Positions 14,303 to 17,184 of a stretch of DNA of 64,000 nt are shown here, one piece after another (positions within the stretch are counted from its first letter, which is position 1; every line of letters starts with the position of its first letter). Source of the DNA: Phaeobacter piscinae (lineage in GTDB: Bacteria; Pseudomonadota; Alphaproteobacteria; Rhodobacterales; Rhodobacteraceae). The notes below the pieces were generated by a model. That model was not told the origin of the DNA and ran no database searches. It worked only from the letters and a program-made list of their open reading frames with translations. Made by a program: the position numbers and the translations under genes. The DNA lies in contig NZ_CP010681.1 of assembly GCF_002407245.1 (NCBI RefSeq), positions 310,001 to 374,000 on the forward strand. Direction: 5' to 3'.

Positions 14303-15082
14303 ATGGTCGAATTCGCACTTCCGAAAAATTCCAAGATCACCACGGGTAAAACCTGGCCCAAGCCCGAAGGCGCAACCAATGTGCGCAAGTTCAGCATCTA
14401 TCGCTGGAACCCGGACGACGGCAAGAACCCGCAGGTGGATACCTATTTTGTCGATATGGACAAATGCGGTCCGATGGTTCTGGACGCGCTCATCAAGATC
14501 AAGAATGAGATTGATCCAACCCTGACATTCCGTCGGTCGTGCCGCGAAGGGATCTGCGGCTCTTGCGCGATGAACATCGACGGCATCAATACGCTGGCGT
14601 GCATCTACGGGCTGGATGAAATCAAAGGTGACGTGAAAGTCTATCCGCTGCCGCATATGCCGGTGGTGAAGGATCTGATCCCTGATTTGACGCATTTCTA
14701 TGCGCAGCACGCCTCAATCATGCCGTGGCTGGAAACCAAGACCAACCGCCCTGCAAAAGAGTGGAAACAGTCTATCGAGGATCGCAAGAAACTTGATGGT
14801 CTTTATGAATGTGTGATGTGTGCCTCCTGTTCGACGTCCTGCCCCAGCTATTGGTGGAACGGTGATCGTTATCTTGGGCCGGCCGCACTGCTGCATGCCT
14901 ACCGCTGGATCATCGACAGCCGGGATGAGGCGACACCGGAGCGTCTGGACGAACTGGAAGACCCCTTTAAGCTCTACCGCTGCCACACGATCATGAATTG
15001 CGCAAAAACCTGTCCCAAGGGTCTGAACCCGGCCAAGGCGATTTCGCACATCAAGCAGATGATGGTGGAACGCGCGGTCTGA
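14303..15082 (+). CDS. sdhB: succinate dehydrogenase iron-sulfur subunit
   Basis: 259 aa. Start chosen at 14303 (AAGGAG 9 nt upstream); the open frame extends further upstream with unrelated sequence. Three Fe-S sites are visible: the plant-type [2Fe-2S] Cys in [16 protein letters not shown], the [4Fe-4S] [16 protein letters not shown] and the [3Fe-4S] [17 protein letters not shown]. Transfers electrons from SdhA FAD to the quinone site. Last gene of the operon, followed by a clear terminator. Confidence 0.97.
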
Positions 15083-15105
15083 TCTGACTCAGAGTACGTA
15101 TTCTC

Positions 15106-15138
15106 AAACGCCGCTCGGGAACCCTGGGCGGCGTTTTT
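15106..15138 (+). terminator. rho-independent terminator of the sdh operon
   Basis: Arms AAACGCCGC (15106-15114) and GCGGCGTTT (15128-15136), followed by a T run (to 15138), 24 bp after the sdhB stop. Confidence 0.9.
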
Positions 15139-15560: not shown

Positions 15561-15752
15561 ATGCCCGTGTTGATCCTCTTCCTGTTGCTTGGCGTTTTCG
15601 GATATTTCCTTTGGCGGCACAAAACGTCCAGTCTGAGCCGACATTGTCGTTGGCGGCAGGAACGCGCGGCTGACCAATGGAGATGTGCGGCTTGCGGGGC
15701 AGTACAGCCCGGCTCTGCGGCGCCAAAACTATGTCTGCGGCAGGCGGGGTAG
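15561..15752 (+). CDS. small membrane-anchored zinc-ribbon-like protein
   Basis: 63 aa. A single N-terminal membrane helix (VLILFLLLGVFGYFLW) is followed by a basic stretch and a Cys-rich tail: CRWRQ, then WRCAACGAVQ and a late PKLC, four Cys that could bind one metal ion. No family recognised. It lies 65 bp after the previous small gene. Confidence 0.5.
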   Translation: MPVLILFLLLGVFGYFLWRHKTSSLSRHCRWRQERAADQWRCAACGAVQPGSAAPKLCLRQAG

Positions 15753-15854
15753 GTAGGGGCGTTCCCTGAAACCACGATGTTCTATGGCCGGTGAGATCGC
15801 TGAAACACGGCACGTGCGACTATCACGTATAAGTTGAGTGATGGGGCGAAAAAA

Positions 15855-15968
15855 ATGCTTGATCGACTCATTGCTTTGGTGGATACGGCGCACAGACGCC
15901 AACGCACGCGCCTCTGTCCCAAGGGTTATCCCCCATGGTTACGTAGCGACGGTAACGTCTCTGATTGA
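15855..15968 (+). CDS. putative leader peptide (37 aa) upstream of ornithine decarboxylase
   Basis: ATG at 15855 preceded by GGGGCG at 7-nt spacing; the frame runs 37 codons to a TGA at 15966-15968, 40 nt before the decarboxylase ATG and in a different frame. The peptide begins MLDRLIALVDTAHRRQRTRL. It has Arg at 4, 14, 15, 17, 19 and 30, and a Pro-Pro-Trp at 26-28, a context known to slow ribosomes. Ornithine and polyamine biosynthesis genes in other bacteria are controlled by leader peptides (enterobacterial SpeFL), and a speF RNA motif has been described upstream of alphaproteobacterial decarboxylase genes. A regulatory role here is inference. Confidence 0.5.
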   Translation: MLDRLIALVDTAHRRQRTRLCPKGYPPWLRSDGNVSD

Positions 15969-15975
15969 AGTGAGC

Positions 15976-16008
15976 GGTCATAGATGGCCGGGTCTTTTGG
16001 AGATGACC
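15976..16008 (+). promoter_or_regulatory. RBS-enclosing hairpin before ornithine decarboxylase
   Basis: GGTCAT (15976-15981) can pair with ATGACC (16003-16008), directly abutting the ATG at 16009 and enclosing the Shine-Dalgarno GGAG (15999-16002). The left arm starts 7 nt after the leader ORF stop, within reach of a ribosome paused at its end. The stem is only 6 bp, so the structure is tentative. Confidence 0.4.
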
Positions 16009-17184
16009 ATGAACGCAAACGTAACCGGGCAACTTGCCCGTCAAGATGCTATTGTCCCCGTTTCTCGCCACCTGTCTTACATTGCACAGAACGCGTTTGA
16101 CCGACCGACACTGGTGATCGACAGTCAAGCTGTTGCCCGGCAATACGCCGCCCTCGCGCAAGGTCTGGGCCGCGCCCGTATTCACTACGCTGTTAAAGCC
16201 AATCCGGAGCCGCAGATCCTGAGGCGCCTGACCAGCATGGGATCCAATTTCGATGCGGCCAGTCGGGCTGAGATTGAGATGTGTTTGGCTGCTGGCGCAA
16301 AGCCGAAACAGATTACTTTTGGCAACACCATCAAGCGCCCGGCGGACATCGCTTTCGCGCATGAAATCGGTATCACGCATTTCGCCGTTGACGCCTTGGC
16401 AGAGATGGAGAAACTGGCTGAGCACGCGCCGGGTGCGCGGGTTTGTATCCGTCTGCTGGTTGAGGCGACCGGCGCTGATTGGCCGTTGAGCCGTAAGTTC
16501 GGCTGTACCCCTGCGATGGCGCTGACCCTGATGGACCGTGCCCGCGACCTTGGTCTATGCGTATCTGGCCTTTCCTTCCATGTCGGATCGCAGACCCGTG
16601 ATCCGCAGATGTGGGCCGACACGCTTGATCAGGTGGCGCAGGTCTGGCGCGCGGCCAAGAACGCCGGACATGAGTTGACCCTGCTGAACATTGGCGGCGG
16701 TTTTCCCGCCAGCTATGGCACTGAGGTGATGGCGCCGAACCGCTACGCGCAGGACGTAATGGCGCTGGTGAACGCGCGGTTTCCGGACGCCTGCGAAATC
16801 ATGGCGGAACCGGGCCGCGGGTTGGTGGCAGAGGCAGGCGCAATCGCGGCAGAAGTTTTACTGGTGTCGCGCAAGGATGCGGGTGATCTGCACCGCTGGG
16901 TCTATCTGGATATCGGGAAATTCTCCGGTCTGGCCGAAACCATGGACGAGGCGATCCGCTATCGCATCACCACGGATCATGGTGACGGGCAGACCGGTCC
17001 CTGCATTCTGGCGGGCCCATCGTGTGATAGCGCCGATGTGCTCTATGAAAAGCAGCTTTATCAAATGCCGCTGGAGCTGAAAGCCGGAGACCGCGTCGTG
17101 ATCCATGCCTGTGGCGCCTATACGACCACCTATGCATCGGTCGGGTTCAATGGCTTCCCGCCGCTGGATGTGGTGGTGATCTGA
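16009..17184 (+). CDS. ornithine/lysine/arginine decarboxylase, PLP fold-type III
   Basis: 391 aa from the ATG at 16009 (GGAG 6 nt upstream); the upstream extension of the frame (15838) is the structured leader. Alanine-racemase-fold decarboxylase: PLP Lys63 in HYAVKANPEP, FHVGSQ near residue 185, the glycine loop NIGGGFP, EPGRG for PLP phosphate, and the C-terminal catalytic Cys in GPSCDSADVLY. It makes putrescine (or cadaverine) for polyamine synthesis. Ornithine decarboxylase is most likely; lysine activity is possible in this family. The 5' leader suggests translational control. Confidence 0.9.
   Translation: MNANVTGQLARQDAIVPVSRHLSYIAQNAFDRPTLVIDSQAVARQYAALAQGLGRARIHYAVKANPEPQILRRLTSMGSNFDAASRAEIEMCLAAGAKPKQITFGNTIKRPADIAFAHEIGITHFAVDALAEMEKLAEHAPGARVCIRLLVEATGADWPLSRKFGCTPAMALTLMDRARDLGLCVSGLSFHVGSQTRDPQMWADTLDQVAQVWRAAKNAGHELTLLNIGGGFPASYGTEVMAPNRYAQDVMALVNARFPDACEIMAEPGRGLVAEAGAIAAEVLLVSRKDAGDLHRWVYLDIGKFSGLAETMDEAIRYRITTDHGDGQTGPCILAGPSCDSADVLYEKQLYQMPLELKAGDRVVIHACGAYTTTYASVGFNGFPPLDVVVI

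Follow-up and report, generated by a model that had tools for sequence, protein, structure and literature searches.

A conserved leader RNA upstream of ornithine decarboxylase in Phaeobacter piscinae, probably a riboswitch of the polyamine pathway

Comparison across the Alphaproteobacteria identifies the leader of the ornithine decarboxylase gene (odc) of Phaeobacter piscinae as a real and deeply conserved cis-regulatory RNA. It occupies positions 15894-16014 of the window, the whole stretch of 64,000 nucleotides that was analysed (NZ_CP010681.1, positions 310,001 to 374,000). Quite likely this stretch forms the 5' leader of the odc mRNA, acting in cis and belonging to a structured RNA family spread across the Alphaproteobacteria. 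As judged from sequence and predicted folding, this RNA of the polyamine pathway is probably a riboswitch, because of its structure, its expression platform and its regulon; the window would carry a compact translational form of the element. Its parts and surroundings are the following:

15859-15864, + strand: predicted -35 box TTGATC; a TTG with an allowed -10 spacing is found in 109 of 110 distinct family leaders
15882-15887, + strand: predicted -10 box GATACG, from the alignment, after a 17-nt spacer; matches TATAAT at 3 of 6 positions
15894-16014, + strand: whole conserved leader RNA including the odc start; match to covariance model R1 (E 3.8e-38, the window being an R1 training sequence)
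15895-15898, + strand: 5' strand of stem P1, GACG, pairing with 15956-15959; A15894-U15960 may extend it; covariation in relatives
15903-15912, + strand: core block 1, CGCACGCGCC, from the alignment; mostly CGCACGUGCC in other families
15907-15909, + strand: inner stem CGC, pairing with GCG at 15946-15948; CGU:ACG in other families
15915-15939, + strand: P2, a hairpin variable in sequence and length in the alignments
15940-15951, + strand: core block 2, TACGTAGCGACG, from the alignment; UAUGCAACGACG and variants elsewhere
15956-15964, + strand: 3' strand of P1 (15956-15959) and anti-Shine-Dalgarno, CGUCUCUGA, able to pair with 15997-16005
15975-15990, + strand: expression-platform hairpin CGGTCATAGATGGCCG, variable in sequence, between the anti-Shine-Dalgarno and the Shine-Dalgarno
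15999-16005, + strand: Shine-Dalgarno region GGAGATG, which the predicted default fold sequesters
16009-17184, + strand: ornithine decarboxylase (ODC), fold III, of the Orn/DAP/Arg decarboxylase family (PF02784, PF00278)

From 15894 onwards two blocks, AGACGCCAACGCACGCGCCUCUG and GUAGCGACGGUAACGUCUC, are fixed nearly letter for letter with a variable hairpin between them, and are followed by a second variable hairpin and then mostly by GGAGAUGACC-AUG. A close ODC is encoded in 98 of the 295 family-sample genomes (cut-off 1e-100 in the family and 1e-70 in the class, more distant genes falling outside the sample). With one leader at a contig end left out (L050), the structured RNA is present in 97 of 97 testable family leaders, 96 by a fuzzy match to both blocks and one by eye (L239). 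One of the 96 (L204) is degenerate, with part of core block 2 missing and a Shine-Dalgarno that looks intact.

The best PDB match of the decarboxylase at 16009-17184 is the lysine/ornithine decarboxylase 2plj (E 3.4e-60), and its NCBIfam matches are all below their cut-offs. The reading frame of the gene is open upstream to a GTG at 15838 (15838-17184, + strand; 448 aa), and similar open frames are seen in several relatives. Since the frame is open that far, annotation software could extend the ODC protein over the RNA leader.

The conserved TTG of the predicted -35 box stands at -40 to -36 from GACGCC in 106 of the 109 leaders, a count made without a shuffled control. The -10 boxes are weak: in 85 of the 109 leaders they agree with TATAAT at 3 of 6 positions. 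No promoter came out of a strict scan of the E. coli type. Transcription would start at about 15893-15895 (also given as 15893-15896), as we infer from the sequence. The 5' end of the SmrC45 transcript of S. meliloti has been mapped (PMC2780559); its homology runs through SmrC45 being ar45, an equation made from the names. Further upstream, a GC-rich hairpin with a T-run lies at 15046-15138 (+ strand) and is likely the terminator of the upstream gene ending at 15082, an iron-sulfur protein by eye. The Rfam matches P17 and RcsR1 at 15046-15138 are below threshold and outside the leader, and were rejected.

The range of the element was followed with two covariance models. The first, R1, was built from 26 leaders of the Rhodobacterales only and matches 124 of 292 order-sample genomes, once in each. 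In the class, 37 of 385 genomes have a match at E <= 0.05; among the best 17 of the 35 places outside the family, 14 are upstream of ODC, one is upstream of a 33%-identical decarboxylase and two are without any. Two matches made by R1 only (L093 = L331, L103 = L332) have no polyamine gene and stand outside the R2 count given below. Of 66 class ODC leaders whose length allowed a judgement, 31 have a recognisable core and two more perhaps have it (L140, L146), while over half of the 66 show none that is recognisable; L107, like L050, ends at a contig end. The common form of the core in the class is GACGC, CGCACGUGCC, a variable hairpin, AUGCAACGACG and GCGUC.

The second model, R2, was built from 61 core sequences taken from ODC leaders only, its structure consisting of P1, the inner stem and the base of P2. 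It places the core in 79 of the 385 class genomes, at 94 places, and in 24 of the 200 genomes of the phylum, all of them Alphaproteobacteria, and it revealed second and third copies of the element in several genomes. Three of the 94 places belong to the window's family and 15 are already-known ODC leaders; the 76 others were examined and, with 9 from the phylum scan, make 85 loci, outside which stand six further phylum-scan places of family f174. Four loci lie at contig ends (L281, L293, L310, L321), so that 81 of the 85 were counted.

No fewer than 79 of these 81 loci with readable downstream DNA precede polyamine genes. Going by the first gene recognised, 50 loci have ODC, 22 an ODC-like paralog, 6 homospermidine synthase and 1 speD-speE. 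One homospermidine synthase (L277) has a PDB match with E 9e-177, and the speD-speE locus is above cut-off for TIGR03330 and TIGR00417. The ODC-like paralogs are at 47-86% to that of L276 and match NCBIfam only below cut-off; in several loci homospermidine synthase comes next after the paralog. Such a second, ODC-like decarboxylase of fold III carrying the element is seen at L276, L279, L280, L287, L288, L295, L302 and L305. Of the two exceptions among the 81, one precedes a class-I glutamine amidotransferase (L261) and one has no polyamine gene in sight (L275); both are nonetheless strong R2 matches, at 62.8 and 59.9 bits. The steady placement before the genes of one pathway that is expected of a riboswitch is thus found at 79 of 81 loci, and it is the strongest argument for a signal from polyamine metabolism.

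The pairing of the core is supported by covariation to different degrees in its different stems. In R2's own alignment neither the covariation score nor the share of cells paired was reached by any of 500 shuffles, and two of the five measures, which count pairs and types, were unremarkable (reached by 170 and 327 of the 500). In 67 further R2 matches, 66 of them outside the training set (L290 is the same place as training sequence L137), 88.7% of the P1 cells are paired. In four of the five P1 pairs both partners change, from A-U to C-G in 15 sequences and from G-C to C-G in 12; the changes to C-G come largely from Rhizobiales-type sequences and so represent few events. Covariation over the whole structure is 0.172 against 0.089 in shuffled alignments (reached by 0 of 500), the alignment of the 67 being fitted to the model, which favours the signal, and the pair and type counts were reached by 34 and 67 of 500 shuffles. 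In the same alignment the signal drops when the partners are slid.

The inner stem pair 36-201 of R2's own alignment is U-A in 31 sequences and C-G in 30 with none unpaired, essentially one change at the level of lineages, and in the 67-match alignment the inner stem is invariant. The pairing of P2 is partly supported, with 75-78% of cells paired. Within the Rhodobacterales, P1 and the stem with the Shine-Dalgarno scarcely vary. A test of P1 on the variant class leaders alone gave p 0.11, and over all leaders the Fisher value is 1.1e-6, which treats related sequences as independent and is indicative only; cross-pairing energies for P1 did not separate own from foreign partners. Within the limits set by the number of events and by the count measures, the element has the conserved structured core with covariation that is characteristic of riboswitches.

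The 3' strand of P1 has a second complement in the Shine-Dalgarno region of odc. P1 and the sequestration of the Shine-Dalgarno are therefore mutually exclusive, because they share this strand. Of the pairing with the Shine-Dalgarno, the first seven pairs, CGUCUCY:GGAGAUG, are intact in 90 of 91 distinct leaders, a count that takes in only leaders fitting the core and Shine-Dalgarno patterns (leaders with another Shine-Dalgarno, such as L236, L239 and L240, are out) and whose Shine-Dalgarno pattern favours the pairing. The stretch from P1 onwards was set against the Shine-Dalgarno region in 91 Rhodobacterales leaders and in 23 from other families whose start is recognisable. The best duplex begins within the first few nucleotides of that stretch, where the 3' strand of P1 lies, and it is built from different sequences in different lineages. 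Eight class leaders were left out of this test, being either of the type that precedes the speF leader or lacking a clear start. Leader by leader the tests are weak, with p from 0.02 to 0.50 in the 23 class leaders and a median of 0.08 in the 91; the combined Fisher values of 1.5e-6 and 3.6e-28 assume independence of related sequences and are indicative only.

In the window the default fold is predicted at -33.7 kcal/mol and the fold with P1 at -30.9 kcal/mol, and the predicted unpaired share of the Shine-Dalgarno region is 0 in the former versus 0.89 in the latter. In 93 Rhodobacterales leaders, the fold with P1 lies on average 6.1 kcal/mol higher than the minimum, as calculated without tertiary contacts. 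By sequence and predicted folding, the leader thus has a platform that is exclusive with the closing stem, as a riboswitch does, and the folding suggests a translational switch that is off by default and turned on by its signal. An earlier note on this DNA had likewise proposed that RNA pairing hides the Shine-Dalgarno, which the predicted folds uphold, and had given GGTCAT (15976-15981) as the partner of ATGACC (16003-16008). That pairing is perfect, but the six-nucleotide arm is found in 17 of 91 distinct leaders, and 66 of the 91 have its first four bases; the arm was rejected as the conserved switch, 15956-15964 being the better conserved partner of the Shine-Dalgarno.

By combining these observations, it is possible to describe how the leader might work. 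Without the signal the RNA would settle in the fold that sequesters the Shine-Dalgarno. Once a signal stabilised the core together with P1, the Shine-Dalgarno would be freed and the translation of odc switched on. As for its sign and identity, we infer that the signal is most likely a small molecule of arginine, ornithine or polyamine metabolism. In Rhizobiales-type relatives a U-run follows P1, and to judge by these sequences P1 may there terminate transcription (OFF), opposite to the ON sign proposed for the window.

The same P1/anti-Shine-Dalgarno switch might instead be the site of a regulatory protein, or of a trans-acting sRNA, that senses the polyamine status of the cell. The evidence on structure and regulon fits such a site equally, and no ligand is reported as bound by the speF leader in the account of Corbino 2005 (PMC1273637), but the near-invariant nucleotides around a variable hairpin look like an aptamer, and we regard a protein or sRNA site as rather unlikely.

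A further alternative depends on how the element is related to two known RNAs of the class, the speF leader (RF00518) and ar45 (RF02347). Rfam 15 gives nothing better than E 4.1 over the leader, and its weak matches there, ES205 (E 4.1) and NPPA-AS1_3 (E 8.1), were rejected. The earlier note had proposed a comparison with the Rfam speF model; RF00518 has no match at E <= 10 in the window at 15840-16030, and none in G000 and the family genomes scanned, while 6 of 190 class genomes do have one. RF02347 has no match in the window or in G000. Neither RF00518 nor ar45 can therefore be used as a direct name for the window element, there being no covariance-model match. A relation of the element to the speF leader region of Alphaproteobacteria, a motif that the earlier note had cited, is supported. 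In the carriers of RF00518 the core is directly upstream of it. In six genomes RF02347 lies on the core, 7-8 nt upstream of RF00518. R2 and RF02347 match the same stretch in G332, G459, G363, G321 and G414; G481 was aligned by its core and is an R2 training sequence, yet it was missed in the filtered scan, and G415 has a subthreshold RF02347 match at the core (20.6 bits). Because RF02347 matches the same stretch in six genomes with the speF leader, ar45 is the counterpart of the core, with which it shares core sequence and the position of P1. The adjacency of ar45 and speF is already in print (PMC7717549, PMC2573895). In the open-licence literature, preprints and supplements aside, we found neither a Rhodobacterales counterpart of ar45-speF or odc leader RNA nor a polyamine-regulon RNA in Alphaproteobacteria.

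The RNA might instead be chiefly a transcription attenuator whose terminated product acts in trans as an ar45-like sRNA. The short distance between RF02347 and RF00518 in the six genomes favours this, as does the RF02347 match of G332, the one place read out, which ends in a U-run directly after the 3' strand of P1; in S. meliloti, SmrC45, again equated with ar45 by name, has mapped 5' ends and a 3' end that was placed at a U-run (PMC2780559). The window, however, has no U-run after P1 (CGUCUCUGAU), and its sole terminator-like site, at 15975-15990 between the core and the Shine-Dalgarno, is weak (1 found, 0.4 expected), which makes attenuation as the chief function improbable. An RNA sensitive to polyamines, Mg or pH, sensing cations in general without a specific pocket, would suit target genes that make polycations and two states a few kcal/mol apart, but it would not need so many near-invariant nucleotides and is very improbable.

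The earlier note had placed the control in a peptide. It described an ORF of 37 codons (15855-15968, + strand) with six Arg, a PPW at residues 26-28 and a Shine-Dalgarno-like GGGGCG (15843-15848) before it, on which a ribosome pausing at the PPW or Arg codons would open the odc start. The letters are correct, and the stop is indeed 40 nt before the decarboxylase ATG at 16009, in a different frame. Yet the ATG is at this exact position in 1 of 110 distinct family leaders, which is the window itself (the 110 are the named relatives and the family sample, duplicates removed); it is missing in the same-genus relative L022, and it sits 4 nt upstream of the conserved TTG of the -35 box. In the 340 nt searched, PPW occurs in the window only, among the window and 17 named relatives (L002 has masked bases there), and in any frame it occurs in 7 of the 110 leaders. 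By chance, 33% of 4000 first-order simulations of 15601-16008 produce an ORF that begins with ATG, runs for 37 codons or more and ends <=100 nt from the gene. The alignment of odc leaders that the earlier note had called for, made from the window and 17 named Roseobacter-group loci, shows no conserved reading frame: the peptide is not kept, and what is conserved is RNA sequence and structure. The start of transcription, moreover, would lie downstream of 15855. In 63 of the 110 leaders some ATG, GTG or TTG at -60 to -5 does begin a frame open beyond core block 2, such as GC-rich DNA readily allows.

Relatives outside the family differ in this respect. A short ORF separate from the enzyme starts 49-87 nt past the RNA core in 54 of 85 distinct relatives, and in 18 of the same 85 no start was found; in aligned Rhodobacterales leaders the equivalent ATG is the decarboxylase start itself. 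The leader ORF has 8-16 codons in 10 of 14 such copies before the ODC-like paralog, 8 before speD and 12-61 before ODC. In 6 of 6 homospermidine synthase copies (L277, L278, L289, L303, L309, L286) it has 14-16 codons and starts 62-82 nt after the core. Near the end of the ODC leader ORFs of L110, L115, L117 and L251 stands GRKNPLSS or GRENPLSS, possibly a conserved peptide end or possibly RNA sequence. By sequence, then, the idea of an upstream ORF would fit these relatives and not the window, where the 37-codon ORF was rejected as spurious. The observation of the earlier note is partly confirmed and its interpretation partly supported, but for the window the peptide reading is wrong, and a leader-peptide attenuator on 15855-15968 is hardly credible.

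The riboswitch reading can be carried further, in a proposal whose odds are a little below even. The element would represent a new riboswitch family of the whole class, in which a metabolite of the polyamine pathway controls ODC, its paralog, homospermidine synthase and speD-speE. The ar45 sRNA and the speF leader would be the two halves of one Rhizobiales version; the Rhodobacterales form would be a minimal, purely translational ON switch, and elsewhere the RNA would gate a short leader ORF. That a single core precedes several polyamine genes in many families suggests which metabolites are worth testing. The roseobacter version, at about 120 nt, with one R1 match per genome and reaching to the start codon, lends itself to simple binding and reporter tests.

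Several known systems can be compared with the window element. SpeFL of enterobacteria also controls ornithine decarboxylase from the 5' leader, but as a conserved peptide that is read by the ribosome, whereas the window leader has no conserved peptide (start codon in 1 of 110).

The speF leader RF00518 (Corbino et al. 2005) is, like the window element, found upstream of alphaproteobacterial ODC. It is described as a 5' conserved stem topped by an insertion, starting near the putative transcription start, and followed by a long bulged stem-loop (PMC1273637). Compared by description, its 5' part would fit the window-type core, whereas the RF00518 matches start past the U-run that follows the core. 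The account given there includes neither a platform sequestering the Shine-Dalgarno nor a wider polyamine regulon (PMC1273637). According to the same account, the A. tumefaciens construct bound none of L-ornithine, L-lysine, meso-DAP, putrescine, cadaverine and spermidine; its ligand list does not extend to arginine, agmatine, homospermidine or SAM derivatives, and what the speF leader responds to was not settled in 2005 (PMC1273637). For the RNA ar45 or SmrC45, independent expression as an sRNA and wide conservation in Rhizobiales are described (PMC7717549); it differs in having no match in the window, and its function is still called unclear in later accounts (PMC12403871, PMC7717549).

The odc1 motif (uORF-25-1, Brewer et al. 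2021) resembles the window in being an alphaproteobacterial ODC leader with its RBS in a stem; it has a pseudoknot near the 5' end, and mutations of conserved nucleotides affect a reporter (PMC8632094). It is set apart, by its description, by twin UUG starts and a conserved 11-aa uORF (PMC8632094), as against the single AUG at 16009 of the window, and a search of 67 class ODC leaders gave no such arrangement at the start of the gene. The spermidine riboswitch, a SAM-I variant, is similar in that one RNA is tied to several polyamine genes (PMC10853860), but differs in fold, the window leader having no SAM-family Rfam match. The SAM-II riboswitches of S. meliloti metA and metZ differ in their known ligand, SAM, and SAM-II has no match in the window. 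In these, as described, one aptamer class is joined to transcriptional as well as translational platforms, and translation is controlled at a distance from an upstream AUG (PMC9373788). By analogy, such regulation at a distance is a possible model for the leader ORFs of the relatives.
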